From Eubacterium sp. (GTDB lineage Bacteria > Bacillota > Clostridia > Lachnospirales > Lachnospiraceae), in NCBI GenBank assembly GCA_017480495.1, contig JAFVAQ010000037.1:1-64000 (forward strand): a stretch of 64,000 bases of DNA. The letters are read 5' to 3'. A program made the translations under genes and the position numbers. Each line of letters starts with the position of its first letter. Position 1 is the stretch's first letter. Shown piece by piece: positions 4,510 through 62,917 of the stretch. The notes under the pieces were generated by a model. The model did not search any database. It saw only the letters and a program-made list of their open reading frames with translations, and was not told where the DNA came from.

Positions 4510-4556
4510 GGCCAGTGGGGACTGTCCCCGTGACAACTTTTGTGAACTTTGTGAAG
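4510..4556 (+). repeat. GGGGACTGTCCCC dispersed repeat, long copy 3
   Basis: Runs from GGCCAGTGGGGACTGTCCCC through the tail TGACAACTTTTGTGAA. The tail is identical to copy 4 at 13471 for TGACAACTTTTGTGAA. The core GGGGAC-T-GTCCCC is a perfect hairpin-forming palindrome around one base. Confidence 0.75.
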
Positions 4557-4560
4557 TAAT

Positions 4561-4624: not shown

Positions 4625-4629
4625 GCCGA

Positions 4630-4670
4630 CTTATAAAGAGCATATGCCTATTTTGGTTTTTATAAGGAGG
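4630..4670 (+). promoter_or_regulatory. leader hairpin adjoining the ribosome binding site
   Basis: The predicted transcript would begin near 4630 with CTTATAAA (4630-4637), which is complementary to TTTATAAG (4659-4666). The last G of this arm is the first base of the GGAGGG ribosome binding region for the permease start at 4679. Forming the stem would put the ribosome binding site against a helix. No known riboswitch motif (including the TPP consensus) is visible. Confidence 0.4.
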
Positions 4671-4678
4671 GCAAAAAA

Positions 4679-5908
4679 ATGTCTCGAATAGCACTAATCT
4701 GGTTCGGCGCAGCTATATCAATCGCCGAGATTCTTACAGGTGCATGCCTGGAAAGCCTAGGTCTTGTACGTGGTCTTGTAGTAATTGTCTTAGGTCATCT
4801 CATTGGTTTCCTGCTTCTGGTTCTTGCTGGAATTATTGGAGTTAAGAATAAAGAAGGCTCTATGAGGTCGTCGGCCCTATCCTTCGGAAAGTATGGAAGC
4901 TATTTCTTTGCAATTTTGAATATCATACAGCTTATAGGATGGCAGGGTATAATGATCTTCGATGCATCACTTTCTGCTCAGGGTATTCTAAGCCTTGGTC
5001 ATACATGGTGGTGTCTTATCATAGGTATTTTGACAATAACGTGGATTTTATTAGGGCTTAAGCATAGAGACAAGTTAAATGTCCTTGTTATGGTTTTATT
5101 ACTTATTCTAACCATTATTTTATCTTTTATTATTTTCTCCGGATTAAAGGGTGGGGAAACAGTTGGACAGAGTGCAAGTGAGAGACTCTCCATTGGACAA
5201 GGTTTAGAGCTGTCAATAGCGATGCCACTTTCCTGGATACCAATGATTGCTGACTATACATATAGAGCTGATAAGCCTGTTAAGACAACATTTGCAGCTT
5301 GTGCAACCTATACCGTTGCCAGTATTTGGATGTATATAATAGGTCTTGGAGCTGCAGTTATAACTCATGAAACAAGAATAGATCAGATAATGCTCAAGGC
5401 AGGCTTTGGTGTAGCAGGACTATTCATCATTGTTTTCTCCTGCGTTACAACAAACTTTATTGATGCATTTTCCTGCAATCAGTCAACCTTTGCTTTGTTC
5501 CCGGAGAATAAAGTCCCACAGGAACTAGAGGGAAAATCAAGTCTGATTCATAAAATAAAGGCTAACCTTCCTGGAATAATTGATACTATAATAGGTACAA
5601 TTGGTGCTATACTTTTACCGATGGAGAATATAACAGAATTCCTTTATTTTATTGGTTCAGTTTTTGCACCGATGATTTCAGTTCAGATTGCAGATCAATT
5701 TATAGTTGGACATAAAAAAACTGATACAAGAGTCGATGGAGTAGCAAGCGTTGCATGGATTCTTGGTTTTGTAATATATAGAGTCCTGATGAATTATGAT
5801 TTTGTTGTTGGTTATACTATACCAAATATGCTTATCACTGTATTTATAACAGTCATTTTAAGAAAGAGTACATTGAAGGCTCATACGCTTATTAAGAAAC
5901 CAGCATAA
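4679..5908 (+). CDS. NCS1-type permease, CytX/CodB-like
   Basis: 409 aa integral membrane protein with about 12 hydrophobic segments, of the purine/cytosine permease (NCS1) family. The opening IWFGAAISIAEILTGACLE and the segment SFGKYGSYFFAILNIIQLIG are closest to the CytX branch, thought to import hydroxymethylpyrimidine. No TPP riboswitch precedes it, and the next gene 25 bp downstream is a pyridoxamine kinase, so the substrate may instead be a vitamin B6 vitamer. That is inference from neighbourhood. GGAGGG lies just before the ATG. It has its own promoter (4596-4624). Confidence 0.75.
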   Translation: MSRIALIWFGAAISIAEILTGACLESLGLVRGLVVIVLGHLIGFLLLVLAGIIGVKNKEGSMRSSALSFGKYGSYFFAILNIIQLIGWQGIMIFDASLSAQGILSLGHTWWCLIIGILTITWILLGLKHRDKLNVLVMVLLLILTIILSFIIFSGLKGGETVGQSASERLSIGQGLELSIAMPLSWIPMIADYTYRADKPVKTTFAACATYTVASIWMYIIGLGAAVITHETRIDQIMLKAGFGVAGLFIIVFSCVTTNFIDAFSCNQSTFALFPENKVPQELEGKSSLIHKIKANLPGIIDTIIGTIGAILLPMENITEFLYFIGSVFAPMISVQIADQFIVGHKKTDTRVDGVASVAWILGFVIYRVLMNYDFVVGYTIPNMLITVFITVILRKSTLKAHTLIKKPA

Positions 5909-5933
5909 ACTTTAATTATGGAGATATAATAAA

Positions 5934-6764
5934 ATGAAGCAGAAGAAGATGGCACTTATAAATGACCTTACAGGCTTTGGACGATGTTCGATATCTGTAA
6001 TGGCACCTATAATCTCAGCTATGAAGATACAGGCAGTTAGTATACCGACAGCTATTTTGTCTACACATACTCAATTTCCTGAATTTTTCTTTGATGACTA
6101 TACACCTAAAATGCATGATTATATCCAGACTTATAAGAATCTGAATATGGAATTCGATGGTATAGCTACAGGCTTCCTTGGGTCAAAGGAACAGGTGGAT
6201 ATAGTGATAGATTTTATCAAGTATTTCAGAAATGATAAGAGCGTTATTCTTATCGATCCTGTTATGGGTGATAATGGAATATTATATAAGACCTATACTC
6301 GTGAAATGTGTGATAAAATGAAGGAGTTGGTAGAATATGCAAATATTATTACTCCTAATCTGACAGAGCTATGTACGATTCTGGGTGTTGACTTCGGGAA
6401 TGGTAAGTTCAGCATAGATGAGCTTCATGATATGTGTCAGGAGCTTTCAGAAAAGGGCCCGGAACATATAGTTGTAACAGGTATTCCTTTCCACAAAAAG
6501 CAGATAATGAATTACATTTATTCTAAGGGTGAGGACCCGCAGATCGTTATGGTCGACAGGATAGGTGAAGATAGAAGCGGAACAGGTGATGTTATAAGCT
6601 CTGTAATTGCAGGAATGTATATGAATGGTCATACATTTTATGACTCTGTCAGAAAGGCGGCTGAGTTTGCATCTAAATGTATAAAATATTGCGAAGAAAA
6701 CCAGGTCCCTACTCATTGGGGACTCTGCTTTGAAATGTATATGAAAGATCTTATGGAGGTATAG
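5934..6764 (+). CDS. pyridoxamine kinase (PdxY/PdxK-like)
   Basis: 276 aa ribokinase-fold kinase that phosphorylates B6 vitamers with ATP in the salvage route to PLP. Seen: the substrate-side opening NDLTGFGRCS, the central DPVMGDNG, TPNLTELCTILG, and the anion-hole/catalytic GTGD with Asp219. Length is normal. It lies 25 bp after the permease gene and 2 bp before the radical SAM gene, so the three are probably one transcript. HMP kinase (ThiD) is the alternative, but the opening sequence fits the pyridoxal/pyridoxamine kinase branch better. Confidence 0.8.
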   Translation: MKQKKMALINDLTGFGRCSISVMAPIISAMKIQAVSIPTAILSTHTQFPEFFFDDYTPKMHDYIQTYKNLNMEFDGIATGFLGSKEQVDIVIDFIKYFRNDKSVILIDPVMGDNGILYKTYTREMCDKMKELVEYANIITPNLTELCTILGVDFGNGKFSIDELHDMCQELSEKGPEHIVVTGIPFHKKQIMNYIYSKGEDPQIVMVDRIGEDRSGTGDVISSVIAGMYMNGHTFYDSVRKAAEFASKCIKYCEENQVPTHWGLCFEMYMKDLMEV

Positions 6765-6766
6765 AA

Positions 6767-7426
6767 ATGATTCTATATACTGTGACGGGTAAAGTCGGAA
6801 ATGAGGGATATCTGGATATCTCAAAGAGCGGAGATCTAACGGGAAAAAATTTATATGTAAATATGACAAATAAATGCCCATGTAATTGCGTCTTTTGTCT
6901 TCGACATACTAAGGAAATGCAGGAGGGAAGTAACCTGTGGTTTAAAGAGGGAGATCCTAGTCTAGAGTCTGTCCTAGAGCTTTTTTCACAGTATGATCTT
7001 AGCGGTATAAATGAACTCGTTTTCTGCGGCTTTGGAGAACCCTTAGAGCGTCTAGAGGATGTTTGCACGGTTATAGATACCCTAAAGCAGACCTATCCAG
7101 ATCTAAAAGTAAGAGTTAATACAATAGGACTTGCTAATCTAATCTACGGCCAAGACGTGACTCCAGAGCTTGAGGGAAGAGTAAATACAGTTTCTATTTC
7201 GCTAAATGCTCCTAATGCGGAAGAATTCTACCAACTTACACGCTCAAGATTTGGAATAGAGTCTTATGAGGCATTAAAGGAATTTGCTGTTCTAGCGAAA
7301 AAATATGTGCCAAATGTTGTTATGACAGTTGTTGAAAAGGTTATGCCAGAAGAAAAGATAGCAATTTGTGAGAAGATATGTGATGATCTAGGTGTTACAC
7401 TAAGAATAAGACCTTTTGAGAGTTAA
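6767..7426 (+). CDS. TatD-linked radical SAM protein
   Basis: 219 aa radical SAM enzyme. The [4Fe-4S] ligands are Cys37, Cys41 and Cys44 in NKCPCNCVFC. The start MILYTVTGKVGNEGYLDI and the glycine-rich ELVFCGFGEPLERLEDV fit the small family named for its usual linkage to TatD nucleases; no tatD gene is present here. The reaction is unknown. GGAGG at 6755-6759 overlaps the end of the pyridoxamine kinase gene, so the two are translationally close. A decayed copy of its first 15 codons lies 3.6 kb downstream at 10347. Confidence 0.85.
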   Translation: MILYTVTGKVGNEGYLDISKSGDLTGKNLYVNMTNKCPCNCVFCLRHTKEMQEGSNLWFKEGDPSLESVLELFSQYDLSGINELVFCGFGEPLERLEDVCTVIDTLKQTYPDLKVRVNTIGLANLIYGQDVTPELEGRVNTVSISLNAPNAEEFYQLTRSRFGIESYEALKEFAVLAKKYVPNVVMTVVEKVMPEEKIAICEKICDDLGVTLRIRPFES

Positions 7427-7532
7427 TATATAACCTTTTAAAAGATATCTCGAGAGATAGTAAAACTTGAGGAGGGAGATGCTATCACTCCGGTATATTT
7501 TGCTTTTGTGTAGTATTAAATGGAGTTTTATT

Positions 7533-10328
7533 ATGGTATTAGATTGGAATAAATATGAGGTGTTAGCTAGACAGGCAGTTGGTGAGGGTGTTGTTCTGCT
7601 TAAAAACGAGGCAAATGTTCTACCAATTAAGAGGGAGACGAAACTCTCTATCTTCGGACGTATGCAGAATAGATATTATAAGAGTGGAACAGGTTCTGGT
7701 GGAATGGTAAATGTACCAAAGGTCTGGAGTATTGTGGAAGGTCTTCAGGCTGAGAATATCCTTCTTAATGAAGAGCTTCTCAAGGTATATGCGGAGTTTG
7801 AAGAAACTCATCCGTTTGATCCAGGAGTTGGATTTGGAAATGAACCTTGGTCTCAGGTGGAGATGGAAATAACTGAGGAGCTGGCTTCAAAAGCCAGTAA
7901 AGAGTCGGACGTTGCCCTTGTTATCATTGGCCGTACTGCCGGTGAGGAACAGGACTATATCAATGATAGAGGAGCATTTAAGCTGTCTATATATGAAGCG
8001 GATATGCTGAAAAAGGTTAGAAACGCTTTTGACAGGGTCGTTCTTGTTATGAATGTAAGCGCCATTCTTGACATGAAGGAGATAGAGGAGATAGCGCCAG
8101 ATGCCATTTTATATGCTTGGCAGGGTGGCGAGGTTGGAGCACTGGGGTGCGTGGATGTTCTGCTGGGCAAGGTTTGCCCAAGTGGGCGCCTGACAGATAC
8201 AATTGTTAGGAATATCGAGGATGCTTCAGCTTATGGTAATTTCGGTGATACTGTAAGAAACTTCTATAAAGAAGATATATATGTGGGCTACCGCTATTAT
8301 GAAACCTTTAATAAGGATGCGGTTATGTACCCCTTTGGTTTTGGATTATCCTACACAAGCTTTGATGTGACTCCTGGAAATGTTAGCTTAGAGGATTTAG
8401 ATTCCCTCAGCATTGCTGCGGAAGTTAAGAATACTGGAAAAGTATCTGGCAAAGAGGTGGTTCAGTTCTATGTATCTAAGCCGCAGGGCCTCCTGGGAAA
8501 ACCAGCCCTTAGCCTTGTGGGATTTCTTAAGAGCGATATTCTTAGTCCTGGCGAGGAATGCACCTTGTCTCTGGATATTAATCCATACACTATTTCATCC
8601 TATGACGATACTGGTGTGACAGGCTTTGAGGCCAGCTATGTGCTGGAAGAGGGCGAATATATATTCTATGTTGGACAAAATGTCAGGGATATAAAGGAAG
8701 CAGGAAGATTTATTCAGGATGAAACTATAGTTATCGAACAGCTCAGTCATCAGATGGTTCCAAATGCTGGCTTTGATAGGATTAAACCTGTTAGAAATGA
8801 TGATTCAGATACATTTAGTATCAGGTATGAAGAGGTTAAGGCATTTCCACTGTCTGATCTGGATGATGCAGTATATGATAAGCCTGAAGTAAAGGATTAC
8901 ACTGGCGACAAGGGCTTTAAGCTGAAGGACGTAAGAGACGGAAATGTGTCTATGGATGACTTCCTCGCACAGCTTTCTGATGAGGACCTGTCCGTGATAA
9001 TACGCGGAGAGGGGATGGGAAGTCCTAAGGTTACGCCGGGTACTGCGGCGGCCTTTGGCGGTCTTAGTAATAGTCTTAAGAACTTTGGAATTCCTGCGGG
9101 CTGCTGCTCGGATGGACCTAGTGGTATGAGGCTTGATTCGGGCTTTAGGGCATTTAGCTTACCTAGTGGCACACTTCTGGCATGCACTTGGAATGAGGAG
9201 CTGAACACCAGTCTCTACAGTATGCTTGGAATGGAAATGAATAAGAATGACGTTGATTTCCTGCTTGGGCCGGGTATGAATATTCACCGTTTTCCTCTTA
9301 ACGGAAGAAACTTCGAATATTTCAGCGAAGATCCACTGGTAACCGGTAAGATGGCTGCGGCTCAGATAAGAGGTCTTAAGAAGAGTGGTGTTTCAGGAAC
9401 ACTTAAACATTTCTGCGGAAATAATCAGGAGACCTGCAGACATACTGAAGAAAATGTTATATCCGAAAGGGCTCTAAGGGAAATATACCTAAAGGGCTTT
9501 GAGATAGCAGTAAAGGAATCAGGTGCGGATTCCGTGATGACTACATATGGTCCTGTAAATGGAATCTGGACTAACTCCCGCCACGATCTGAATACCAATA
9601 TCCTTAGAAAAGAGTGGGGCTTCAGGGGCATTGTTATGACTGACTGGTGGTCCAATATAGGCGATGTGGGTGGAGTAGTAGACAAGACTTCATTTTCAAG
9701 ACTTGTTCTGGCACAAAATGATTTCTATGCGGTTTGTCCTGATGCGTCTGTGAATTCTATTGGCGATGATACTCTTGAGGCACTGGGTAAGGGTGTGATC
9801 ACCAGAGGCCAGCTGGCTAGAATGGCTGGAAATATCTGTCAGGTCCTTATGAATACTAACGCAATGAAGAGACTGTGTGGTGAGGATTATAAGGTTGAAG
9901 TAATCGGATTCAAGGATGAACTCGAGAGCGAAGACCTGTCTGATGTTGAATATTTTGAGATAGAGGATGGCACAGTGTTAGACCTTTCTCAGGTCGATAC
10001 TTCGAAGGGAGCGGTATATTTCCTTGGCTTCGATGTAAAGAAAAGGGGCTGCTATTTTATGGATATGGTTGGAAGCTCTGATCTATCGGAACTGTCACAG
10101 ATGCCTGTAGGAGTATTCTTCCAGGGCGTGCCTTGTGGAAGCTTCACCTTCCATGGCGGAGGTGAGGAACTCAGTATCCGAAGAAAGATATTATTCCATT
10201 CAAAGTATGGAGTGATGAGACTTAAGTTTATGAATGGTGGTCTAAAACTAAAGGAGTTAAGGTTTACCTTCGAAAGAACCCCAAAGGAGGACGAACCTTG
10301 GGAGAACTTTCAGGAATATATCTGCTAA
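7533..10328 (+). CDS. GH3 beta-glucosidase with inverted domain order
   Basis: 931 aa glycoside hydrolase family 3 enzyme, which releases glucose or xylose from beta-linked oligosaccharides. The order is reversed: the C-type domain comes first (LARQAVGEGVVLLKNEANVL), then a fibronectin III-like domain after FGFGLSYTSF, then the catalytic barrel (GCCSDGPSGMRL, GPGMNIHRFPLNGRNFEYF, KHFCGNNQET). The nucleophile is Asp704 in VMTDWW. This arrangement is known from rumen Butyrivibrio BglA. I choose the ATG at 7533 (TGGAG 7 nt upstream). An in-frame ATG at 7479 with a stronger AGGAGG would add a hydrophobic leader. A small inverted repeat, TATCTC-GA-GAGATA, lies at 7446-7459. Probably cytoplasmic if started at 7533. 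Confidence 0.9.
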   Translation: MVLDWNKYEVLARQAVGEGVVLLKNEANVLPIKRETKLSIFGRMQNRYYKSGTGSGGMVNVPKVWSIVEGLQAENILLNEELLKVYAEFEETHPFDPGVGFGNEPWSQVEMEITEELASKASKESDVALVIIGRTAGEEQDYINDRGAFKLSIYEADMLKKVRNAFDRVVLVMNVSAILDMKEIEEIAPDAILYAWQGGEVGALGCVDVLLGKVCPSGRLTDTIVRNIEDASAYGNFGDTVRNFYKEDIYVGYRYYETFNKDAVMYPFGFGLSYTSFDVTPGNVSLEDLDSLSIAAEVKNTGKVSGKEVVQFYVSKPQGLLGKPALSLVGFLKSDILSPGEECTLSLDINPYTISSYDDTGVTGFEASYVLEEGEYIFYVGQNVRDIKEAGRFIQDETIVIEQLSHQMVPNAGFDRIKPVRNDDSDTFSIRYEEVKAFPLSDLDDAVYDKPEVKDYTGDKGFKLKDVRDGNVSMDDFLAQLSDEDLSVIIRGEGMGSPKVTPGTAAAFGGLSNSLKNFGIPAGCCSDGPSGMRLDSGFRAFSLPSGTLLACTWNEELNTSLYSMLGMEMNKNDVDFLLGPGMNIHRFPLNGRNFEYFSEDPLVTGKMAAAQIRGLKKSGVSGTLKHFCGNNQETCRHTEENVISERALREIYLKGFEIAVKESGADSVMTTYGPVNGIWTNSRHDLNTNILRKEWGFRGIVMTDWWSNIGDVGGVVDKTSFSRLVLAQNDFYAVCPDASVNSIGDDTLEALGKGVITRGQLARMAGNICQVLMNTNAMKRLCGEDYKVEVIGFKDELESEDLSDVEYFEIEDGTVLDLSQVDTSKGAVYFLGFDVKKRGCYFMDMVGSSDLSELSQMPVGVFFQGVPCGSFTFHGGGEELSIRRKILFHSKYGVMRLKFMNGGLKLKELRFTFERTPKEDEPWENFQEYIC

Positions 10329-10346
10329 AACAAATGGAGGCATAAA

Positions 10347-10427
10347 ATGATTCTATACACGGTAACAGGAAAGGTTGGAAATGAAGGATATACATTATTT
10401 GCGAATAAAGGATTCCTTTACCTGTAG
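10347..10427 (+). pseudogene. remnant of a second TatD-linked radical SAM gene
   Basis: Codons 1-15 encode MILYTVTGKVGNEGY, identical to the start of the gene at 6767, and even the preceding GGAGG region is alike. The DNA differs at many third positions, all synonymous, so the two copies diverged while both were under selection. After codon 15 the match ends and the frame stops at 10425. The 3' end of the LysR gene on the other strand (stop at 10395) abuts the break, as if a deletion or rearrangement joined them. Confidence 0.75.
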
Positions 10428-11276
10428 GAGAAATTTCTCAGCTATAGGTGTAAAGGTTTGATATTTGTTCCATATAAGATAAAGTTTTGTTTCCTGTTTT
10501 GGGGAGAGCGGTCTAAAGATTAGATCACTTTCCTCGGAACAATTAATAAGATGTTCAAAGGTAAGGAGGAGTCCCAGTCCTTCCTTTGCAAACATAGAAG
10601 CATTATACGAGAGTCTGAATGAGCCTTCTAAGTGAAGAGAGGGAAATGTATCCCCTGCCCATTCTGGTATTTCTATATTCCAGCTTTGTTCAGAGCAGTA
10701 GAGTGGCTGTCCTACTAGGTCAGTAGCTTTAATGCTCTTTTTCTTTGCCAGTGGATGATTCTTTAGCATCACAACTCCCCAACGGTCCGAGGCTGGAAAT
10801 GTAATGTACTCATATTTATCAGTATTAGGAGTTTCGCAAAGTACCGCAAAGTCCAGAAGCCCCTTATCTAGCTTCTCTGTGACCTGCTCAGTATCACCAC
10901 TTGTTATATGATAGGTGAAAGAAGGATAGCGGTCCTTTAGCTTTTTTATCTCTCTGGCAAGAAGTCTTATCTGGTAGGATTCCGCCAGTCCAAAATAAAT
11001 ATCACCACCTGTAATATCATCTAGAGATATAAATTCCTGTTCGATTTTATCAGCCATTGCAATCAGATCCTCTGCACGGTCTCTCAGAAGCATGCCCTCG
11101 TCAGTAAGGGATATACTGAAGCTATGACGGATAAAAAGTTTCTTGCCTAGCTCGTCCTCCAGAGATTTTAGTGTTTTTGATAATGTGGGCTGAGTGACAT
11201 GAAGCATGTCAGCTGCCTTTGTCATGTTTTCTTCTCTTGCTACTGCGAGAAAGTAGCGAAGGTTTTTTATTTCCAT
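10395..11276 (-). CDS. LysR family transcriptional regulator
   Basis: 293 aa. N-terminal winged helix at residues 1-60 (MEIKNLRYFLAVAREENMTK then AADMLHVTQPTLSKTLKSLE), followed by a periplasmic-binding-fold effector domain. The start at 11276 is supported by an AGGGGGAT site upstream; a longer frame exists but lacks one and begins before the normal LysR start. It is divergent from the small helical protein and alpha/beta hydrolase genes. A 21-bp palindrome at 11308-11328 in the shared region looks like its binding site. Confidence 0.9.
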   Translation of the reverse strand: MEIKNLRYFLAVAREENMTKAADMLHVTQPTLSKTLKSLEDELGKKLFIRHSFSISLTDEGMLLRDRAEDLIAMADKIEQEFISLDDITGGDIYFGLAESYQIRLLAREIKKLKDRYPSFTYHITSGDTEQVTEKLDKGLLDFAVLCETPNTDKYEYITFPASDRWGVVMLKNHPLAKKKSIKATDLVGQPLYCSEQSWNIEIPEWAGDTFPSLHLEGSFRLSYNASMFAKEGLGLLLTFEHLINCSEESDLIFRPLSPKQETKLYLIWNKYQTFTPIAEKFLLQVKESFIRK

Positions 11277-11307
11277 GGAATATCCCCCTAGCTGGATTAT
11301 ATTTACT

Positions 11308-11328
11308 GATATTCCCATATGGAATATC
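11308..11328. promoter_or_regulatory. LysR-type operator palindrome
   Basis: GATATTCC (11308-11315), spacer CATAT, GGAATATC (11321-11328). The inner ATTCC-CATAT-GGAAT fits the T-N11-A rule for LysR boxes. It lies 32 bp from the LysR start codon and about 88 bp from the divergent start at 11416, as expected for an autoregulated divergent pair. A third GATATTC half-site follows at 11331-11337. Confidence 0.6.
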
Positions 11329-11415
11329 ATGATATTCATTTTATTCATTAGCGAAGTTCATGTCAATACCATATAATCCTAATATAAGCAGAAAATGATT
11401 TTTGGAGATTGTGTT

Positions 11416-11637
11416 ATGGAACTTAAAGAAATGATAAGTGACATTTCCAAACTAGGGTGCGAAAGCTCGCAGGGAGAACTGGCGGAAAGGCTTTATGAAG
11501 AGGGGCAGATGCAGGAGCTGATAAAATGTCTCAAGAAGTGCAGGTGCAGTCTGGTGGATGAAATGCATGAAAGTCAGAGAAAAGTAGACAGAATCGATCT
11601 GATAATCAGACTAGCTGAGAAAGAAGCAATGAAATAA
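11416..11637 (+). CDS. small helical protein of unknown function
   Basis: 73 aa, soluble, predicted almost entirely helical with three short amphipathic helices and a lysine/arginine-rich C-terminal helix (QRKVDRIDLIIRLAEKEAMK). Three cysteines (CESSQ, KCLKKCRC region) are present. GGAG 8 nt before the ATG at 11416 favours this start over one 7 codons earlier. It lies 21 bp before the alpha/beta hydrolase gene and opposite the LysR gene, so it is probably co-expressed with the hydrolase. Family not recognised. Confidence 0.6.
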   Translation: MELKEMISDISKLGCESSQGELAERLYEEGQMQELIKCLKKCRCSLVDEMHESQRKVDRIDLIIRLAEKEAMK

Positions 11638-11658
11638 TTATTTTAGGAGGTACGAAAA

Positions 11659-12663
11659 ATGATACATAAGGAAGAACTAAAGCTGGTAAAGGAATGGGAT
11701 AAGACATTCCCAAAGAGTGAAAAGGTTGAGCATAGCAAGGTAACATTTGTAAATAGATATGGTATAACACTTGCGGCAGATATGTATGTGCCAAAAAATG
11801 CAGAGGGAAAGCTCCCGGCAATTGCTGTATCGGGTCCCTTTGGAGCAGTTAAGGAGCAGTGCAGTGGACTATATGCACAGACTATGGCTGAGAGAGGCTT
11901 CCTTACAATAGCCTTTGATCCTTCTTTTACAGGTGAGTCGGGCGGAAATGTAAGATATATGGCATCTCCTGATATAAATACAGAGGACTTTATGGCTGCG
12001 GTTGACTTTCTATCGCTAAATGACAGGGTTGATCCTGACAGAATAGGAATCCTGGGAATCTGTGGCTGGGGCGGAATGGCTATAAATACAGCGGCGCTGG
12101 ATACAAGAATCAAGGCTACTGTTGCTTCAACTATGTACGATATGACAAGAGTAAATGCTAAGGGATATTTTGACTCAGAGGACAGCGAGGAAGCCAGATA
12201 TAAGATGAAGTCTGCGCAGTGTGCACAGAGACTGGAAGACCTGAAGGCGGGAGAATATAAGCTGGGAGGTGGAGTTGTGGATCCGCTTCCAGATGATGCA
12301 CCTTTCTTCGTAAAGGACTATTATGATTATTACAAGACAGATAGAGGATATCATGAGAGAAGTCTTAATTCCAATGGTGGTTGGAATGTAATTGGTTGTG
12401 AGTCATTTGTGAATCAGCCTATACTCCAGTATTCTAATGAGATAAGGAGTGCTGTTCTTCTGATTCATGGCGAGAAGGCTCATTCTTGCTACTTTTCAAA
12501 AGACGCATATGCTGATATGATAAAAGATAGTAAGTATGCAGGTAATAAGGAATTAATGATTATTCCTGATGCTGTACACACAGATCTATATGATGGCGGA
12601 GAGAATAAGGTGATTCCTTTTGATAAGCTTGAAGAGTTTTACAATAATTATTTAAATAATTAA
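11659..12663 (+). CDS. alpha/beta hydrolase, dienelactone hydrolase/YcjY-like
   Basis: 334 aa cytoplasmic alpha/beta hydrolase. The nucleophile elbow reads GICGWGG, which places Cys135 where serine is usual, as in dienelactone hydrolase and some YcjY-like enzymes. The oxyanion segment is VSGPFGAVKEQ and the C-terminal histidine is in PDAVHTDLYDGG. AGGAGG precedes the ATG. Probably controlled by the divergent LysR protein through 11308-11328 together with the small protein upstream. The substrate is unknown. Confidence 0.8.
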   Translation: MIHKEELKLVKEWDKTFPKSEKVEHSKVTFVNRYGITLAADMYVPKNAEGKLPAIAVSGPFGAVKEQCSGLYAQTMAERGFLTIAFDPSFTGESGGNVRYMASPDINTEDFMAAVDFLSLNDRVDPDRIGILGICGWGGMAINTAALDTRIKATVASTMYDMTRVNAKGYFDSEDSEEARYKMKSAQCAQRLEDLKAGEYKLGGGVVDPLPDDAPFFVKDYYDYYKTDRGYHERSLNSNGGWNVIGCESFVNQPILQYSNEIRSAVLLIHGEKAHSCYFSKDAYADMIKDSKYAGNKELMIIPDAVHTDLYDGGENKVIPFDKLEEFYNNYLNN

Positions 12664-12673
12664 GGAAAACCAG

Positions 12674-13525
12674 ATGGTAAAAATAATAAGTAAAACATTT
12701 GATGAGGAAAGGGCGCTATACGGCAGCAAGGATATTTACTTAGAAAAATGCACCTTCGACGGTCCAGCCGACGGAGAGAGTGCTATGAAGGAAAGCTCAA
12801 ATATTGAAGTTGTTGATTCATACTTCAATCTTAGGTATCCCTTCTGGCATGATACGAAGGTTCGGATAAAGGACAGTGAGATGACGGAACTCTGTAGGGC
12901 GGCACTTTGGTATTCGACGGATATAGAGGTTGAGAACACTAAGTTTCACGGAATCAAAGCTCTCAGAGAGTGCTCTGATGTTATAATCAGGGATTCAGAT
13001 ATAGTGTCCCCCGAGTTTGGCTGGTCGGTACATAACATAACCATGACTGGATCCAGGGCTGAAAGCGAATATTTCATGATGAGGTCAGATAACCTTCGCT
13101 TCGAAAATGTTGAGATGAAGGGAAAATACTCCTTTCAATATATCGAGGATTCCGAATTTGTTAAATGCAGGTTCGACACCAAGGATGCCTTCTGGCATGC
13201 AAAGAATGTGGTGGTAAAGGATAGTGTAGTTAAGGGCGAGTACCTGGCGTGGTACTGCGAGAATGTGACCTTCGAGAATTGCCTGATTATTGGAACTCAG
13301 CCTCTATGCTATTGCAAAAACCTAAAACTAATTGATTGCAGGATGCAGGATGCCGATCTTGCCTTTGAAAAATCAGATGTCGATGCCACTATCCTTGGCG
13401 ACGTCATAAGCATTAAGAATCCAAAGTCCGGCACCATCCGCGTAAATTCCGTTCAGGAAATCATAAATGATGCCAGTGGGGACGGTTCCTCTGACAACTT
13501 TTGTGAAGTTATTGTGAACAATTAA
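12674..13525 (+). CDS. DUF3737 family protein (right-handed beta-helix-like)
   Basis: 283 aa. The whole protein is made of short repeating strands of the pentapeptide/beta-helix kind (EKCTFDGPADGESAMKESSN, then ALWYSTDIEVENTKFHGIKA and similar), diagnostic of DUF3737. No signal peptide. The function is unknown, although beta-helices usually bind carbohydrate or act as scaffolds. Its last 18 or so codons (from about DASGDGSSDNF) are not beta-helix sequence but translate a copy of the dispersed GGGGACGGTTCC repeat, so the natural end has been replaced. It follows the hydrolase gene by 10 bp. Confidence 0.85.
   Translation: MVKIISKTFDEERALYGSKDIYLEKCTFDGPADGESAMKESSNIEVVDSYFNLRYPFWHDTKVRIKDSEMTELCRAALWYSTDIEVENTKFHGIKALRECSDVIIRDSDIVSPEFGWSVHNITMTGSRAESEYFMMRSDNLRFENVEMKGKYSFQYIEDSEFVKCRFDTKDAFWHAKNVVVKDSVVKGEYLAWYCENVTFENCLIIGTQPLCYCKNLKLIDCRMQDADLAFEKSDVDATILGDVISIKNPKSGTIRVNSVQEIINDASGDGSSDNFCEVIVNN
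13471..13519 (+). repeat. GGGGACGGTTCC dispersed repeat, long copy 4, inside a gene
   Basis: TGCCAGTGGGGACGGTTCC plus tail CTGACAACTTTTGTGAAGTT. It matches copy 3 (4510) over about 35 bases and copy 5 (14265) more loosely. It lies entirely within the 3' end of the DUF3737 frame and is translated. Confidence 0.75.
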
Positions 13526-13531
13526 TAATAA

Positions 13532-13574
13532 GCGCAGCAAAAACTAGATTTAGTTATTTGTTGCGCTTTTATAA
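13532..13574 (+). terminator. rho-independent terminator
   Basis: GCGCAGCAAA pairs with TTTGTTGCGC, one mismatch, followed by TTTTATAATT. It closes the hydrolase-DUF3737 transcript. Confidence 0.75.
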
Positions 13575-56202: not shown

Positions 56203-58590
56203 ATGACACTTAGAGAACTTGGAATAGGCGAGTCTTGTATTATCAAGGCCGTCGGTGGGGAAGGTGCGCTCAGACAGCACTTTCTTGATATGGGCGTTAT
56301 TCCTGGCGCAGAAATGACTCTTATAAAGTTTGCCCCTATGGGAGACCCTATGGAGCTTAGAGTTCATGGCTATGAGCTGACGCTCAGACTGGATGATGCT
56401 GAGAAGATTGAGATAGAGAAGACAGCTTCCGTTTCTGAACTTCGAGACGAAAATGATCTTGAAGCTGAGGATTCGAAGAGTGGTAAGGATAAAAGCGGTA
56501 GTAAAGATAGAGGTAAGTCCAAGGTTCATCACCCAGGACTTGGTGAGGGCGGTATCTATCATGATAAAACACATGAGAACCCGCTCCCAGAAGGCGAAGT
56601 GATAAGCTTTGCTTTGGCTGGAAATCAGAATAGTGGTAAGACTACACTTTTCAATCAACTGACAGGTTCTAATCAGCATGTCGGCAATTTCCCAGGCGTA
56701 ACAGTAGATAGAAAATGTGGTGGTATCAGAAATGTACCAAATACAGAGGTTGTTGATCTTCCGGGTATATATTCTCTATCCCCATATACAGATGAAGAGA
56801 TAGTTTCGAGACAATATATAATCGGCGAGAAGCCAAAGGGAATAATAAATATAGTAGATGCTACAAATATAGAGAGAAATCTATATCTTACTATGCAGCT
56901 TATGGAGCTGGATATCCCTATGGTGCTTGCTCTAAATATGATGGACGAGGTTCGCGGTAATGGCGGATCTATCAAGATAAATGATATGGAGGCGCTGCTC
57001 GGAATCCCGGTTATTCCTATATCAGCGGCTAAGAATGAAGGTGTAGATGAGCTTATAAGCCATGCTATGCATGTCGCTAAATATCAGGAGAGCCCTGGTA
57101 AGAAGGACTTCTGTGATGAAAAGGATCATGGCGGAGCAGTACATAGATGTCTCCACGGTATCATGCACCTGATAGAGGACCACGCAAAGAGGGCAGAGAT
57201 TCCCGTAAGATTTGCGGCTAATAAGGTTATAGAGGGAGATGCCCGAGTTATAGATGCTCTGGAGCTCTCACAGAATGAAAAGGAAATGATAGAACATATC
57301 ATTCTTCAGATGGAAGAGGAACGAGGTCTGGATAGATCTGCAGCCATAGCAGATATGAGATTCTCCTTTATTCAGAAGCTCGTCTCAGCTACTGTTGTAA
57401 AACCTGCTGAGAGTAAGGAAAGGGAGAGAAGTGAGAAGATAGATAGGATACTGACCGGAAGATTTACAGCGATTCCTGCATTTATCCTAATCATGGGGCT
57501 TACCTTCTTCCTGACATTTAATGTTATAGGAGCCTGGCTGCAGGGCCTGTTGGAGAAACTGATCGACTATGGGGCTGCTAGTCTCGATAAACTCCTGACC
57601 GCTTCAAATGTAAATGATGTCGTTCATTCGCTAATTATAGATGGAATAATAAATGGTGTAGGTAGTGTACTTAGCTTCCTTCCGATAATCATCATTTTAT
57701 TCCTGTTCCTTTCACTTTTGGAGGATTCAGGTTATCTCGCAAGAGTAGCCTTTGTTATGGATAAGCCTCTCAGAAAGCTAGGTCTATCTGGAAGAAGTAT
57801 AGTTCCTATGCTTATAGGCTTTGGTTGTTCGGTGCCGGGAGTTATGTCCAGTAGGACGCTTCCTTCTGAACGAGATAGAAAAATGACAATAATGCTTATT
57901 CCTTTTATGAGCTGTACCGCTAAGATTCCGATATATGGCTTCTTTACAGCGGCATTTTTCCCTGGTAAAGGTGCGCTTATAATGATCGGACTATATCTGA
58001 TAGGTATAGTTGTCGGAATCCTTACGGCAGCAGTTGCAAAGAATACAGTCTTTAAGGGCGAAGCTGTACCATTTGTTATGGAGCTTCCTAATTATAGGCT
58101 TCCTGGGGTTAAGAATGTAGCACAGCTGCTTTGGGAGAAGGCAAAGGATTTCCTGATAAAAGCCTTCACGGTTATTTTTATTGCGACTATCGTTATATGG
58201 TTCCTTCAGACCTTTAATACTCATCTGGGACTAGTTAGTGATCCGCAGGATAGTATACTTGCTAGAGTAGCGGAGTTCATATCTCCTGTATTTAAACCAC
58301 TAGGCTTCGGGGACTGGAGAATAACTACGGCGCTGATTACGGGCTTTATGGCGAAGGAGAGTGTGGTATCTACATTATCGATACTCTTTGGCAATACAGC
58401 GACACTTGTCGGAAGTATTACTCCGACAGCCGCTATGGCACTCCTTGTTTTCTGCCTGCTTTATACCCCTTGTGTAGCAGCGATTGCTTCAGTTAAGAGA
58501 GAGCTTGGAGCTAAATGGGCCCTTATGATGGTTGGACTTCAGTGCGCGGTTGCGTGGGTAGTTGCCTTCCTGATAAATGTTATTTTTTAA
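56203..58590 (+). CDS. feoB: fused FeoA-FeoB ferrous iron transporter
   Basis: 795 aa. Residues 1-75 are a FeoA domain (MTLRELGIGESCIIKAVGGE, HFLDMGVIPGAEMTLIKFAP), then a charged linker (about 76-130, KDKSGSKDRGKSK), then FeoB: G1 GNQNSGKTT, G3 DLPGIYSLSP, G4 NMMD, two Gate regions (VLSFLPIIIILFLFLSLLED and the later repeat). It gives FeoA and FeoB in one chain. This is a second ferrous-iron importer beside the separate feoA-feoB at 52722. AGAGGAG lies upstream of the ATG. Confidence 0.92.
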   Translation: MTLRELGIGESCIIKAVGGEGALRQHFLDMGVIPGAEMTLIKFAPMGDPMELRVHGYELTLRLDDAEKIEIEKTASVSELRDENDLEAEDSKSGKDKSGSKDRGKSKVHHPGLGEGGIYHDKTHENPLPEGEVISFALAGNQNSGKTTLFNQLTGSNQHVGNFPGVTVDRKCGGIRNVPNTEVVDLPGIYSLSPYTDEEIVSRQYIIGEKPKGIINIVDATNIERNLYLTMQLMELDIPMVLALNMMDEVRGNGGSIKINDMEALLGIPVIPISAAKNEGVDELISHAMHVAKYQESPGKKDFCDEKDHGGAVHRCLHGIMHLIEDHAKRAEIPVRFAANKVIEGDARVIDALELSQNEKEMIEHIILQMEEERGLDRSAAIADMRFSFIQKLVSATVVKPAESKERERSEKIDRILTGRFTAIPAFILIMGLTFFLTFNVIGAWLQGLLEKLIDYGAASLDKLLTASNVNDVVHSLIIDGIINGVGSVLSFLPIIIILFLFLSLLEDSGYLARVAFVMDKPLRKLGLSGRSIVPMLIGFGCSVPGVMSSRTLPSERDRKMTIMLIPFMSCTAKIPIYGFFTAAFFPGKGALIMIGLYLIGIVVGILTAAVAKNTVFKGEAVPFVMELPNYRLPGVKNVAQLLWEKAKDFLIKAFTVIFIATIVIWFLQTFNTHLGLVSDPQDSILARVAEFISPVFKPLGFGDWRITTALITGFMAKESVVSTLSILFGNTATLVGSITPTAAMALLVFCLLYTPCVAAIASVKRELGAKWALMMVGLQCAVAWVVAFLINVIF

Positions 58591-58703: not shown

Positions 58704-59519
58704 ATGAAGAAAAGCATTTTAACCGTAAAAGATGTACAGAAGACATTTGCAAGTAATGGACAGCAGGTTCACGTGCTTTCAAATGTAAATATGGAAATAT
58801 ATGATGGAGACTTTACCGTGATTATGGGTTCGTCTGGGTCTGGTAAATCAACCCTCCTGTATGCGCTTTCCGGAATGGATAAGGCGACTGCCGGACAGGT
58901 TCTCTTCACGAGTAAGAAGAGAGAGGGCGAAAATGACCAAGAGGTTGACATAACACAGACTAAAGAAAGACAGATGTCAAAGCTTAGAAGCGAAGATTTT
59001 GGTTTCGTCTTCCAGCAGATGCATCTCGTAAGCAATCTGACTCTCCTCGAAAATGTTGCAGTCACAGGTTATCTGGATAAGAGCAGAAGTGCTGCAGATA
59101 CAAAGAAAAAGGCGGAGGAGCTCCTGGATAGAATGAGTCTCACTGAGGTTAAGAATCATTTGCCTTCAAGAGTATCAGGTGGAGAGCAGCAGAGATGCGC
59201 TATTGCAAGAGCGGTTATAAATGATCCTACAGTTCTTTTTGCGGATGAGCCAACAGGTGCACTTAATAAGAAAAATACAACCGCGGTTCTAGATCTTCTT
59301 ACGGATATAAATAATGAAGGTCAAAGTATAGTAATGGTTACTCATGATATAAAGTCTGCTATCAGAGGTAATAGACTTCTATATCTCGAGGACGGAAACA
59401 TAGTAGGCGAGCTCGAGCTCACTAAATATGGTGAGAAGAATATTGCCGGAGAGCCACTTCAAAGCGATAAATCCCGCGAAGCTCAGGTAAATGCTTGGCT
59501 CGAATCTCTTGACTGGTAA
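58704..59519 (+). CDS. ABC transporter ATP-binding protein (MacB/LolD/BceA-like)
   Basis: 271 aa ATPase. Walker A MGSSGSGKSTLL, Q-loop VFQQMHL, signature VSGGEQQRCAIARA, Walker B VLFADEPTGALN, His switch VTHD. These mark the MacB/BceA branch that powers FtsX-type permeases. GAGGTGA (58694-58700) fits ATG 58704, with ATG 58701 as the alternative. Partner permease is at 59569; a two-component system follows the structured element. Confidence 0.9.
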   Translation: MKKSILTVKDVQKTFASNGQQVHVLSNVNMEIYDGDFTVIMGSSGSGKSTLLYALSGMDKATAGQVLFTSKKREGENDQEVDITQTKERQMSKLRSEDFGFVFQQMHLVSNLTLLENVAVTGYLDKSRSAADTKKKAEELLDRMSLTEVKNHLPSRVSGGEQQRCAIARAVINDPTVLFADEPTGALNKKNTTAVLDLLTDINNEGQSIVMVTHDIKSAIRGNRLLYLEDGNIVGELELTKYGEKNIAGEPLQSDKSREAQVNAWLESLDW

Positions 59520-59568
59520 CAATATTTTATCTGGAGCTACGCTAAGGATCTTATATAGGAGTATAGAG

Positions 59569-61977
59569 ATGGAAACATTCTCACTTGTTAAAGCAAGTAT
59601 AAGAAATAGAAAAGGCACCATGATTAGTTTCATGCTTCTCACTATGTTCATCGTAGTTAGTGTAATAACTATGATCGGAGTTAGAAAGAATTATGAGACG
59701 GCTATTGATGAGGCCTTTAAGATAGAAGATAAAGGCGTAATATTCGCTTATTTTGATAATAGTAAATATTCAGAGGAACTTAAAAAGAAGGTAGAGGCTG
59801 AAGATACAGTAGATCATGTAGAGGTTTATGATGCTCTGGTCGGAAGAAAAGCTACTGTAGGAAAAGAAGAGGAAAGTAATGGCTATTTTGTAACTAAAAT
59901 GCTAGATACACTGCCTATTATGAATAGCGACTGTTCTGACCTCATTATGCCGGGCACGAAGGAACATGCTTCTCTTGGTCTTAAGAAGGGGGAAATCTAT
60001 TTACCATACGGAATACATGGAACCCTGGGGGCTGAGGCAGGAGGGAAGATATCAATAGACTTCATGGATGAAACTAGGGAATTTACTGTTAAAGGTTTCG
60101 TACAGGACGCTTATATGGGTTCTTCCATTATGGGTTGGAAAACAGTATTTCTAAGTGAAGAGGATTTTGATGAAATATATGCTAACGTAAAGAAACAGTC
60201 AGATGAGCTTCAAGATAAAAATAATTCCTTTTATGGAACAATCACCTATGTATTCCCTACAGAGAAGGCGGATGAATCCTCAAATGTCTTTCTTAGGGAC
60301 TTGAATCTGGCTACTAAGTTTGATGATTTATCTATTTCCTCACTCTCAAAAGAGACCGCTGAACACTACACAGGAATATTTATAAATATAATCCTTGCGG
60401 TAATAACTGGATTTGCAGTACTTCTTCTGGCTATATTTATAATCGTAGCCGGCCATAATATCAGCACTGAAACGGAAATAGATTATGTAAACCTGGGTAT
60501 ACTTAAGAGCCAAGGCTTTACTAATAAGAAAATCCGTACTATCTATGTTATTCAGTACCTTTTTGTAGAACTGGTAGGAGTTATACTCGGAGTTATCGTC
60601 TCTATTCCTCTGGAAAGAGTTATGAGTTCAGTATTCTTCGAACTAACATCGATTATCCCAGCAAAGCAGGTGCCTGTACTTGAAGCGGTAATTTTCACAC
60701 TTGCTCTGTTTTTAGTAACAGTTATCTTTGTTTGGCTCTTCACCCGAAGAGTATCAAGAACAACACCGGTTAAAGCTATTACAAAGGGAAGAGATGATTT
60801 CTACTTCGATAGTAGGATAAATGCCCCAATATTTAAGAAGGGACAGGGCTTCTGGCTTGGACTTCGCCAGATAACCTCTGCTCCAAAGCGTTATATAAGT
60901 ATTGTAGTAGTAACTTCGCTACTTATCTTTACTATCATAACCGTTGAGCTCATGGGAGGTTTCATTCAGTCTAGAGAAGCTCTTGAATCCATGGGTGAGC
61001 CATTTTACGAGATTGAATATGCATTTAATGTGAATGAACCAAAGTATTCAACAGAGGATATTGAAGAAATCGTAGAGAAATATTCTAATATCAAGAGTAA
61101 ACAGTATTGGTCACACATTTATATGTCTATAGAGGGCGAAAATGTAAGCTGTATAGTTAAAGCCTTCCCAGACCAACTATCCACTGTCTATAAGGGTAGA
61201 GATATCAAGTATGATAATGAGATAGTTATCACGGAACAGATTAGCGATCTTCTGGATATAAATGTAGGAGATACAGTTTCCATCGGTCGTGATGAACTGT
61301 CTGAAGACTTTGTTGTAGTAGGCATTTTCCAGACTATGAATGATACAGGAAAATGTATCTCCATGTCTCTAGAAGGACTTGATAGACTGAAGAAGGACAA
61401 AACTAAGAAATACAAATACAATCAGCTGAGTATGCACGGCATAATCCTGGATGATCCAAGTGATGGTAAGAAGATTGAAGAGGAAGTTAAAGAAAAGTAT
61501 GGCGATGAAGTAGAAATCAAATTCAGTGACTTCGATAAAGATAAGGCCATGTTCGTAAATAACTTCTATACCGCAGCAGATGGTTCAAGAATCCTTATAT
61601 ATACACTGTCCTTTATCTTCGCGATAGTTACTGTCCTCATGGTATGTAACAAAGCATTTATTCAGGAACGTACAGATTTAGGCATATATAGAGCTATCGG
61701 ATTCTCTGTTGGAAGTATCCGTAGACAGTTTGCAACGAGATTCACAATACTGTGCCTCATCAGTTCAGTCTTCGGTATTATTATAGCTAGGCTCTTCTCC
61801 GAGAAGATGATGTCCTCAGTTTTCGCTATGTTTGGAATACCTCACGTAGTCCTAGACTTTGATTTCTGGTTCTTTATGAAGCCGATACTTGTATTCCTCG
61901 TTGTATACTTCATCTTCGGCTACATAGCGTCCCGTAAGGTGAAGAAGCTAAGTTCTAGAGAACTTATAACAGAATAA
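59569..61977 (+). CDS. FtsX-type ABC transporter permease
   Basis: 802 aa. A helix near residues 20-42, an extracytoplasmic domain (about 45-280), three helices (about 290-320, 350-375, 390-410), a cytoplasmic link ending in SRTTPVKAITKGRD, a further helix near 450-470, a second extracytoplasmic domain (about 475-670) and three final helices. This is the MacB/BceB-like layout with duplicated FtsX halves. AGGAG (59558-59562) supports the ATG at 59569. It may move lipids or antimicrobial peptides across the membrane. Confidence 0.85.
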   Translation: METFSLVKASIRNRKGTMISFMLLTMFIVVSVITMIGVRKNYETAIDEAFKIEDKGVIFAYFDNSKYSEELKKKVEAEDTVDHVEVYDALVGRKATVGKEEESNGYFVTKMLDTLPIMNSDCSDLIMPGTKEHASLGLKKGEIYLPYGIHGTLGAEAGGKISIDFMDETREFTVKGFVQDAYMGSSIMGWKTVFLSEEDFDEIYANVKKQSDELQDKNNSFYGTITYVFPTEKADESSNVFLRDLNLATKFDDLSISSLSKETAEHYTGIFINIILAVITGFAVLLLAIFIIVAGHNISTETEIDYVNLGILKSQGFTNKKIRTIYVIQYLFVELVGVILGVIVSIPLERVMSSVFFELTSIIPAKQVPVLEAVIFTLALFLVTVIFVWLFTRRVSRTTPVKAITKGRDDFYFDSRINAPIFKKGQGFWLGLRQITSAPKRYISIVVVTSLLIFTIITVELMGGFIQSREALESMGEPFYEIEYAFNVNEPKYSTEDIEEIVEKYSNIKSKQYWSHIYMSIEGENVSCIVKAFPDQLSTVYKGRDIKYDNEIVITEQISDLLDINVGDTVSIGRDELSEDFVVVGIFQTMNDTGKCISMSLEGLDRLKKDKTKKYKYNQLSMHGIILDDPSDGKKIEEEVKEKYGDEVEIKFSDFDKDKAMFVNNFYTAADGSRILIYTLSFIFAIVTVLMVCNKAFIQERTDLGIYRAIGFSVGSIRRQFATRFTILCLISSVFGIIIARLFSEKMMSSVFAMFGIPHVVLDFDFWFFMKPILVFLVVYFIFGYIASRKVKKLSSRELITE

Positions 61978-61991
61978 AAGAAAGTGTAAAC

Positions 61992-62183
61992 GCCGAGCAA
62001 ATATGATAAACACTTTTCGAGACCGTTGCGGGTCTCGGTGCTTAGTGAACACGAGCACAAAGTGCGAAGTGTGAACTTAGCAAGCTCATTAAAAGCGAAG
62101 CTTGTAATGAGCGGTCCGCTAGGGGTAGCCCGCACCGAGCGGAAGCGATGTCGAGAATAAGTCGTTTATCATATGAGCTCGGC
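61992..62183. other. highly structured 192-bp non-coding element with terminal inverted repeats
   Basis: Terminal arms GCCGAGC-AA-ATATGATAAAC (61992-62011) and GTTTATCATATGAGCTCGGC (62164-62183) pair over 20 bases with two mismatches. Inside are at least four hairpins: CGAGACC/GGTCTCG (62018-62037), a three-part stem 62040-62080 built from GCTTAGT, ACAC/GTGT and GCAC/GTGC, GCTCATTA/TAATGAGC (62084-62112) around AAGC-GAA-GCTT, and CCGCT/AGCGG (62116-62142). It is visibly richer in G+C than the flanks and has no long open frame. Either a structured RNA or a MITE-like repeat. Confidence 0.65.
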
Positions 62184-62199
62184 ATTAAGACTATCTATA

Positions 62200-62208
62200 T
62201 GTTATAAT
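62200..62208 (+). promoter_or_regulatory. extended -10 promoter of the response regulator
   Basis: TGT-TATAAT, 34 bp before the start codon at 62243, just downstream of the structured element. It suggests the two-component genes are transcribed separately from the ABC genes. Confidence 0.55.
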
Positions 62209-62242: not shown

Positions 62243-62917
62243 ATGAGGAAGATTCTCATTGTAGATGATGATGAGGCTCTCTCAGATATAACGAGGGAGA
62301 TGCTCGAGACATATGAATATAACGTAACACAGGCATTCAGTGTAGATTCGGCCTTTGAAATTCTTACGGATAATAAGTTTGATCTTATTATTCTGGATAT
62401 CAACCTTCCAGATGGTGACGGATACGAGGTATGTAAGGAGCTTCGAAAGGTTTCAAATGTCCCTGTGATCTTCGCCAGTGCAAGAACTAGTGTGGATGAT
62501 AGAGTATCCGGCTTCGAGATGGGCGGAGATGATTATCTGTCAAAGCCTTATTCCATGAAAGAGCTACTTGTAAGGGTGAATGCTCTGATCAGAAGAACGT
62601 ATGGCTCTGAGGAGGAAGAGACATTTTCCTTTGGGGATGTAAATGTGAATCTTACGTCTAGAAGTGTTCAGAAGGGTGGCAAAGAGGTGAACCTTTCTCT
62701 TAAGGAGTTCGACCTCCTGGCATATCTAATAAGAAATGCCAATACGGCTATTTCCAAAGATAAACTAATATCAGAAGTGTGGGGCGCATTCAGTGAAGTG
62801 GATGCCTCCACACTTACTGTGCATATAAGGTGGCTACGTGAGAAGCTGGAGGATGAACCTTCCAAGCCTCATTTTATTAAGACTGTTTTCAAGGTTGGTT
62901 ATATTCTAGAGGTATAG
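62243..62917 (+). CDS. OmpR-family response regulator
   Basis: 224 aa. Receiver domain with Asp52 in LIILDINLPDGDG, acid triad DDDE at residues 8-11, Lys in YLSKPY; winged helix C-terminal (NLSLKEFDLLAYLIRNANTA then AFSEVDASTLTVHIRWLREK). AAGGT 7 nt before the ATG at 62243 supports this start over one 10 codons upstream. The kinase gene starts 6 bp later. It probably regulates the ABC genes just upstream. Confidence 0.92.
   Translation: MRKILIVDDDEALSDITREMLETYEYNVTQAFSVDSAFEILTDNKFDLIILDINLPDGDGYEVCKELRKVSNVPVIFASARTSVDDRVSGFEMGGDDYLSKPYSMKELLVRVNALIRRTYGSEEEETFSFGDVNVNLTSRSVQKGGKEVNLSLKEFDLLAYLIRNANTAISKDKLISEVWGAFSEVDASTLTVHIRWLREKLEDEPSKPHFIKTVFKVGYILEV

Follow-up and report, generated by a model that had tools for sequence, protein, structure and literature searches.

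Between a predicted ABC transporter operon and a two-component system in a 64,000-nucleotide stretch of Eubacterium sp. DNA (the whole stretch analysed, hereafter the window) lies a short inverted-repeat element, and the question was whether it is a mobile DNA repeat, a structured RNA or a sequence that works as folded DNA. The first-pass annotation had delimited the element as 61992–62183, with 20-base ends around several hairpins, and had considered both a MITE-like repeat and a multibranched non-coding RNA. Its basic description was accurate. The 20-base ends paired with exactly two mismatches, the AAGC-GAA-GCTT stem was found at 62093–62103, and the G+C content was 0.505 in the element versus 0.403 and 0.367 in the two 300-base flanks and 0.397 in the window. 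The element starts right after the stop codon (61975–61977) of a predicted permease gene (59491–61977, + strand) and lies before the ATG at 62243 of a predicted response-regulator gene (62243–62917, + strand; given from an earlier ATG, 62213, in the open reading frame list). It contained no plausible gene, since the sole listed reading frame across it encoded 71 amino acids on the minus strand, and no second copy was found in the window. The extended -10 promoter-like word TGTTATAAT (62200–62208, + strand) was located immediately outside the right arm and is probably the promoter of the two-component genes. TATAAT also came after the element in three relatives (G083, G012 and G075). In element-free relatives, it was present in the short gap of G069, G005 and G033 and absent from the gap of G021, G030 and G070.

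Architecture of the element

The folding of the element was far stronger than that of shuffled sequences (z = -8.7 for the + strand and -9.2 for the - strand), and 0 of 200 shuffles folded as well. The conserved core, at about 62019–62154, formed a three-way junction of the outer stem P1, the helix P2/P3 and the hairpin P5. The core layout was derived from an alignment of 103 non-redundant copies and was counted on alignment A1 (MAFFT, n = 69), which comprised the window and 68 of 70 reference copies; the 70 had been selected from these 103 with copies of more than 150 bases and seven atypical loci removed.

The ends that had been annotated as terminal inverted repeats constituted the outer stem P1, and the arm sequences mostly differed between copies. 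The left arm (61980–62018, + strand) pairs with 62155–62195 and contains the earlier left repeat (61992–62011). The right side (62150–62195, + strand) consists of GTC, GA and then the arm 62155–62195, which includes the earlier right repeat (62164–62183). The paired arms reached further outward than 61992 and 62183, and about 61980–62195 is therefore the better extent of the element. At the inner end of P1 (62019–62023, + strand), the tandem GA (62019–62020) and GAC (62021–62023) face GTC-GA at 62150–62154. GAC and GTC covaried (columns 15–19 with 160–164 of A1), and GA opposite GA was the commonest state (38/69). Among 120 unique copies, 116 had enough flank for the arms to be evaluated, and in 107 of these the pairing within the copy exceeded the 95th percentile of controls with swapped arms. 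The arms listed for the genus were mostly unrelated in sequence between copies, and some had recurring end motifs.

Inside P1, the helix P2 is formed by TGCGGG (62027–62032, + strand) and CCCGCA (62129–62134, + strand), with the consensus UNNGGG/CCCNNA and double-sided changes in four of six pairs. The conserved internal-loop UCU (62033–62035, + strand) faces CUAGGGGUAG at 62119–62128; TCT was present in 65/69 sequences of A1 and CTAGGGG in 50/69. The 5' strand of P3 (CGG-TGCT-T-AGT-GA-ACAC, 62036–62052, + strand) contributed 15 counted pairs, in which 99.4% of the cells were paired. It leads to the apical hairpin GCAC-AAA-GTGC (62053–62068, + strand), which has a triloop and is flanked by GA and GAA. 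The 3' strand of P3 returns in two parts, 62069–62082 (+ strand) and CCG at 62116–62118 (+ strand), the latter pairing with CGG at 62036–62038 with double-sided changes in two of three pairs. Between the two parts stands the optional side hairpin P4 (62083–62112, + strand) with the AAGC-GAA-GCTT tip, which was of variable length or absent in other copies of the alignments. Across the family, P3 was interrupted by mismatches and its apical hairpin varied. The P5 hairpin GC-GGAA-GC (62139–62146, + strand) carries a GNRA-type loop, which was found in 69/69 sequences of A1. When 180 copies were scanned for loops of the form G-N-N-A, a search that presupposes the first and last base, 169 were found, of which 167 were GNRA.

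The stems covaried strongly. In A1, 30 of 38 pairs had double-sided changes, 89.9% of the cells were paired, and the covariation score was 0.394 compared with 0.137 for shuffled alignments; 0 of 500 shuffles reached the observed score. A slid control gave at most 0.122, and this comparison is biased in favour of the structure because the structure was derived from the same sequences. The safer number is 393 double-sided cells versus 121 after shuffling, the former also being inflated by the kinship of the copies. For 38 matches at 24 loci, mostly from other genera, the score was 0.712 in an alignment fitted to the structure (A2).

Distribution and mobility of the family

Homologues of the element were found in other genomes. 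Its own genome (1.89 Mb, 66% complete) contained 10 matches to the covariance model R1, nine of them outside the window, and 45 of 61 genomes of the genus contained 1–35 each, with no match at the threshold used in the other 16. In the Lachnospiraceae the distribution was patchy, with matches in 38 of the 397 genomes sampled and in 36 of the 334 genera, own genome counted. With the broader model R2, matches were obtained in 24 of the 295 genomes sampled from the order, all 24 being Lachnospiraceae, and in 7 of the 398 sampled from the phylum. Stricter filters were used in these large-scale searches of family, order and phylum, and the counts are lower bounds. Outside the Lachnospiraceae, the family was found in three sampled genomes from two other families of the phylum; the phylum-level matches included G1080, with eight full-length matches. 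In G916 and G1055, the P3 hairpin was repeated in tandem, with a unit of 87 bases in L173. Such tandem P3-type hairpins, accompanied by a second hairpin, occupied 3994–4246 of L173, 4063–4323 of L175 and 4222–4396 of L174, all in a distantly related family of the same phylum, and may be an ancestral or parallel form.

A search of named genome contigs with the core pattern returned 104 stretches. The 80 listed were from Lachnospiraceae or "Eubacterium sp.", and according to the record titles many of these 80 came from ruminant samples. The same pattern had 0 matches in viral contigs, and the phage and plasmid searches yielded no relative. Rfam models on the window and on loci of other genera gave nothing above the gathering score; what matched was due to chance or to unrelated RNAs at other positions of the loci. 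In the open-access literature, with subscription papers, preprints and ISfinder outside the scope, no repeat, RNA motif or folded DNA site among the entries listed resembled the family, and a word search in the accessible text of a transcriptome and metagenome RNA catalogue (PMC8040213) returned nothing on Lachnospiraceae. The family apparently is an undescribed one of small dispersed palindromic repeats in gut and rumen bacteria, belonging to no named family.

The proposal of a MITE-like mobile repeat was largely right. The element is short and without a reading frame, its ends are inverted, and it is present in many dispersed copies. Arms and core moreover travel together in other genera: in G716 and G144, four copies each shared arms and core and had different outer flanks, and G185 and G344 contained related, less clean cases. 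Terminal repeats common to several copies were observed within G716 and G144, and in the genus of the window the arms were mostly unrelated. Two copies lay head to head, with the 5' ends facing, at no fewer than 10 loci (L015/L130, L028, L047, L059, L067, L076, L112, L114, L119, L233, L246, L155, L156 and L157). L164 was an exception, with two same-strand copies 300 bases apart.

The neighbour genes of 178 copies were housekeeping, two-component and transporter genes in the 25 largest clusters, among which there was no transposase or reverse transcriptase. The Y1 transposase family PF01797 did not track copy number (6/10 copy-rich versus 7/10 copy-poor genomes), and the co-occurrence with a RAYT-type enzyme that characterises REPIN/RAYT systems was not observed. 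The reverse transcriptase family PF00078, which would be expected to accompany an RNA-mediated element, did not track it either (4/10 versus 5/10).

Orientation and constraint at orthologous sites

In G083, G012 and G075, the two genes of the window were present in the same order and direction, and the element between them was reverse-complemented (1.3-kb locus search and alignment). The inverted stretch corresponds to 61979–62183. The inverted element of G083 was 96% identical to that of the window over 205 bases, and its core was identical at 136/136 positions; in G012 the locus was split within the element between two contigs. Six genomes (G069, G005, G021, G030, G033 and G070) had the same gene pair 41–93 bases apart with the element absent, and in G066 and G077 the gap was longer, also without the element. 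The simplest inference from these sequences is an insertion in an ancestor of the four element-bearing genomes, followed by a flip. By eye, the empty sites of this locus revealed at most a TA as a duplication, which was not convincing.

The same behaviour was observed across the genus. Among 180 unique copies, the pairs with both flanks homologous had the same orientation in 34 cases and the opposite orientation in 33. Sites with two copies were removed, which affected 10 of the 34 same-orientation pairs and 16 of the 33 inverted pairs (8 of these 16 were two copies of one locus); 24 same and 17 inverted pairs were kept, corresponding to 41 pairs in 20 single-element sites grouped by hand. Both orientations occurred at 10 of these 20 comparable sites, one of the 20 (L128/L043) having weak flank similarity, and 4 of the 11 pairs that were clearly the same element were inverted. 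Some orientations could be assembly errors, as most of the named contigs with copies are metagenome assemblies according to their titles. At the leader of an epimerase-like gene (L010/L202), the flanks were 93–98% identical and the cores 53%, that is, different elements occupied the same spot, which suggests that one element was replaced by another.

The core changed slowly in place. In 11 of the 41 pairs, chosen for a core similarity of 95% or more and hence with a core rate biased downward, 18 of 1238 core positions (1.5%) had changed, compared with 88 of 657 (13.4%) in the 30-bp arms and 1778 of 21138 (8.4%) in the flanks, which were taken 80–1200 bases away and were mostly coding; the arms of the same copies serve as an internal contrast. 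In the four inverted pairs, the changes amounted to 1.4%, 19.7% and 6.4% in core, arms and flanks, respectively. The pairing of P1 was followed at 12 site pairs, namely the 11 and one purH pair, with 97 changed pairs. Of the 34 double-sided changes, 22 were still paired and 12 broken, and about 12 double-sided changes would be expected by independence. The 63 single-sided changes left 15 paired and 48 broken. P1 is thus only partly maintained in place.

These results bear on the likeliest of the rivals, a plain selfish MITE-like repeat without a function in place, in which template switching would produce the pairing incidentally and the core would be conserved only because the mobile copies are young. 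The patchy copy number (0–35 per genome), the arms that accompany the core in other genera, the exchange of elements between close relatives at L010/L202 and the decay of P1 in place would all be accommodated by it. Against it stand the slow change of the core relative to arms and flanks at the 11 sites with homologous arms, although those pairs had been selected for similar cores, and the constancy of the short helices and the GNRA loop across genera. The selfish repeat was considered a rather unlikely explanation.

Folded DNA or folded RNA

SRP RNA of the genus served as the reference for the types of base pair in the element. The cells of A1 comprised 2162 Watson-Crick, 64 G-U and 41 A-C pairs (G-U share 2.9%), in a count that omits one fixed T-G and one non-canonical position, and P3 alone comprised 919, 1 and 4, respectively. 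For the SRP RNA of 30 genomes, RNAalifold gave 1768 Watson-Crick, 403 G-U and 6 A-C pairs (G-U share 18.6%). Tolerance of G-U far above A-C, typical of a structured non-coding RNA, was thus not seen in the element (64:41 versus 403:6), in a gap that depends on the method: the RNAalifold structure on A1 gave a G-U:A-C ratio of 133:34, and a symmetric pairing count gave 410:128 for SRP RNA versus 165:117 for P1, where G-U was above A-C (p = 0.005). The scarcity of G-U relative to SRP RNA holds, and its size depends on the method. The ratio was 41:24 in other genera (A2) and 35:7 in other genera and classes (A4), both in fitted alignments. Within A1, it was 2.0 for sense copies, 1.6 for antisense copies and 1.0 for the others.

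GNA triloops are a signature of DNA mini-hairpins. The remark in the first-pass annotation on the d(GCGAAGC) type of loop was a good lead, since GNA triloops were over-represented: the apical loop of P3 was a triloop in 104 of the 166 copies parsed out of 180, and 39 of these 104 were of the GNA type. In rRNA hairpins, triloops account for 6.1%, and the stability of GNRA loops is exceptional in both nucleic acids, DNA and RNA (section 8 of PMC8794818). The + strand folded better than the - strand in 164 of 174 copies with DNA energies and in 171 of 174 with RNA energies (174 of the 180 copies were compared), and its mean advantage was larger with RNA energies (10.8 versus 3.5 kcal/mol).

The orientation relative to genes was close to random. 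The 145 classified copies included 71 sense and 51 antisense copies between co-directional genes (p = 0.085, with copies that are not independent), 16 between divergent genes and 7 between convergent genes; 24 further copies at contig or locus edges were left unclassified. A smaller first copy set had given 46 sense and 24 antisense copies. The consistent sense orientation before a gene that marks a riboswitch or leader was not observed in these sets. An internal promoter was rejected, as TATAAT-like words showed only a broad, strand-symmetric rise 40–60 bases outside the left side, without a sharp peak.

Watson-Crick covariation, triloops and near-random orientation, together with one special strand, favour a folded single DNA strand. 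Accordingly, we consider it about an even chance that the family is a non-autonomous dispersed mobile repeat whose conserved functional form is the folded + strand of DNA, with arms and flips arising through template switching. In this model, the + strand would fold into the long outer stem P1, the bent helix P2/P3 with its small apical hairpin and the GNRA-capped P5, and the arms of P1 would be free in sequence. Polymerase template switching between the arms would keep them complementary and would occasionally invert everything between them, so that the orientation to neighbour genes would become near random. The core would be recognised by a putative trans-acting factor that acts on the folded DNA. 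Paired arms of free sequence and flipping cores without a site-specific recombinase would fit template switching. Switching between short inverted repeats is described as homogenising the arms and inverting the spacer in yeast (the excerpted text of PMC8604942) and is also treated in the excerpted text of PMC8794818; the spacers in the yeast work are of a few bases, and none given there is as long as that of the element.

Several observations weaken the folded-DNA reading. The GNRA loop is a classic RNA loop as well, and the advantage of the + strand was larger with RNA energies. G-U exceeded A-C in P1, the SRP contrast was method-dependent, and the ratio was 35:7 in A4. A single-stranded intermediate, a recombinase or a binding protein was not identified, and the Y1 transposase and reverse transcriptase genes did not track the copies. 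The maintenance of arms by template switching is weakened by the decay of P1 in place (48 single-sided and 12 double-sided broken pairs).

The same evidence was weighed for a structured non-coding RNA, either a cis leader or attenuator or an independent small RNA, present in multiple copies and acting as the + strand transcript. The multibranched shape that had been proposed was borne out by the three-way junction and its covariation, unmatched in 500 shuffles; the RNA part of the proposal was not, because G-U pairs were lacking and the orientation was near random. A complex conserved fold with a GNRA loop, the better folding of the + strand with RNA energies and the position of some copies just before a gene start, such as purH-like genes at three loci and always in sense, would suit a transcript. 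The scarcity of G-U relative to SRP RNA, the near-equal orientation to genes, the occurrence of inverted copies at orthologous sites that nevertheless retain their core, the TATAAT-like words without a sharp peak and the absence of an Rfam match argue against it, and this explanation is unlikely. A hairpin transcribed in either orientation (an RNase III site, mRNA stabiliser or operon insulator), of which both strands fold and only Watson-Crick pairs survive, is quite improbable: it would explain the G-U scarcity, fits the many copies between co-directional genes (71 + 51 of 145) and has precedents in Correia and ERIC elements (excerpts of PMC3049150), but only one strand has the GNRA loop and the advantage in folding, and 16/61 genomes of the genus had no match at the threshold used.

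Among known systems, the nearest concept in print is the class of "mobile/repeat sequence candidates" (MRSC) of PMC11109978, described in the excerpts used here as multi-copy covarying motifs of inconsistent orientation that possibly act as DNA. MRSC-65-2, the one member compared (249 others are in the class), is described as one long stem bearing a UYCCGG repeat, whereas the element is a three-way junction. The Correia element of Neisseria is similar in behaviour, being a small intergenic repeat with inverted ends, a conserved core and inversion in place (reported in the excerpted text of PMC10969869, which cites Elbeyioglu 2017). However, Correia ends are a conserved 26-bp sequence (excerpts of PMC3049150) and the ends of the element are free; its deep conservation is internal, in a three-way junction, and it belongs to a different phylum. 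ERIC, bcr1 and YPAL repeats are likewise 100–200 bp, intergenic and dispersed with stem-loop folds, but the excerpts of PMC2267715 report for them neither in-place inversion nor a shared multibranched core with unrelated arms. BOX and RUP of Streptococcus pneumoniae are modular, foldable intergenic repeats over-represented between convergent genes (excerpts of PMC3049150), a position held by 7 of 145 copies here. REP/REPIN palindromes, as far as the excerpted sources describe them, are tied to RAYT enzymes acting on single-stranded hairpins and resemble the family in its paired inverted copies, whereas the fold of the element is much larger and Y1_Tnp genes do not track it. Integron attC sites, in the excerpted sources, are recombination sites whose recognised form is one folded strand of DNA, with a strand preference. 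The conserved boxes of attC sites lie at the stem ends, unlike the internal conservation of the element.

Covarying bacterial motifs are normally filed as RNAs. A comparative test based on G-U versus A-C pairs, loop types and orientation at orthologous sites can help tell folded DNA from folded RNA, and the hundreds of matches in one genus form a large natural data set for it. The family also provides many independent cases of in-place inversion and arm pairing, as the template-switching model predicts. Should inversion also take place inside populations, phase variation would have a new source next to transporter, biosynthesis and two-component operons of common gut and rumen bacteria. More tentatively, and with rather less than even confidence, the family may represent a class of DNA element selected as a complex folded strand, a three-way junction with GNRA and GNA loops, and maintained through near-pure Watson-Crick covariation in a bacterial family and beyond it. 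Such an element would be read by a putative DNA-hairpin-processing system and would flip in place so frequently that its orientation becomes random, and it could serve as a sequence-independent switch beside operons, for instance the transporter and two-component pair of the window.

Other features were observed near the copies. In the window, a long reading frame at 56203–58590 directly precedes the transporter genes and appears from its sequence to encode a FeoA-FeoB type fusion. In L187 and L145 (G083 and G012), a short palindromic repeat that is absent from the window separates the element from the response regulator; it is of the kind that gives spurious "SERSEES" peptides, and similar sequence adjoins family copies in L153 and G185. 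In L153 (G413), nine same-strand family copies were clustered unusually within 10 kb (3466–13549), among genes that read as mnmE, mnmG, rsmG and argS.
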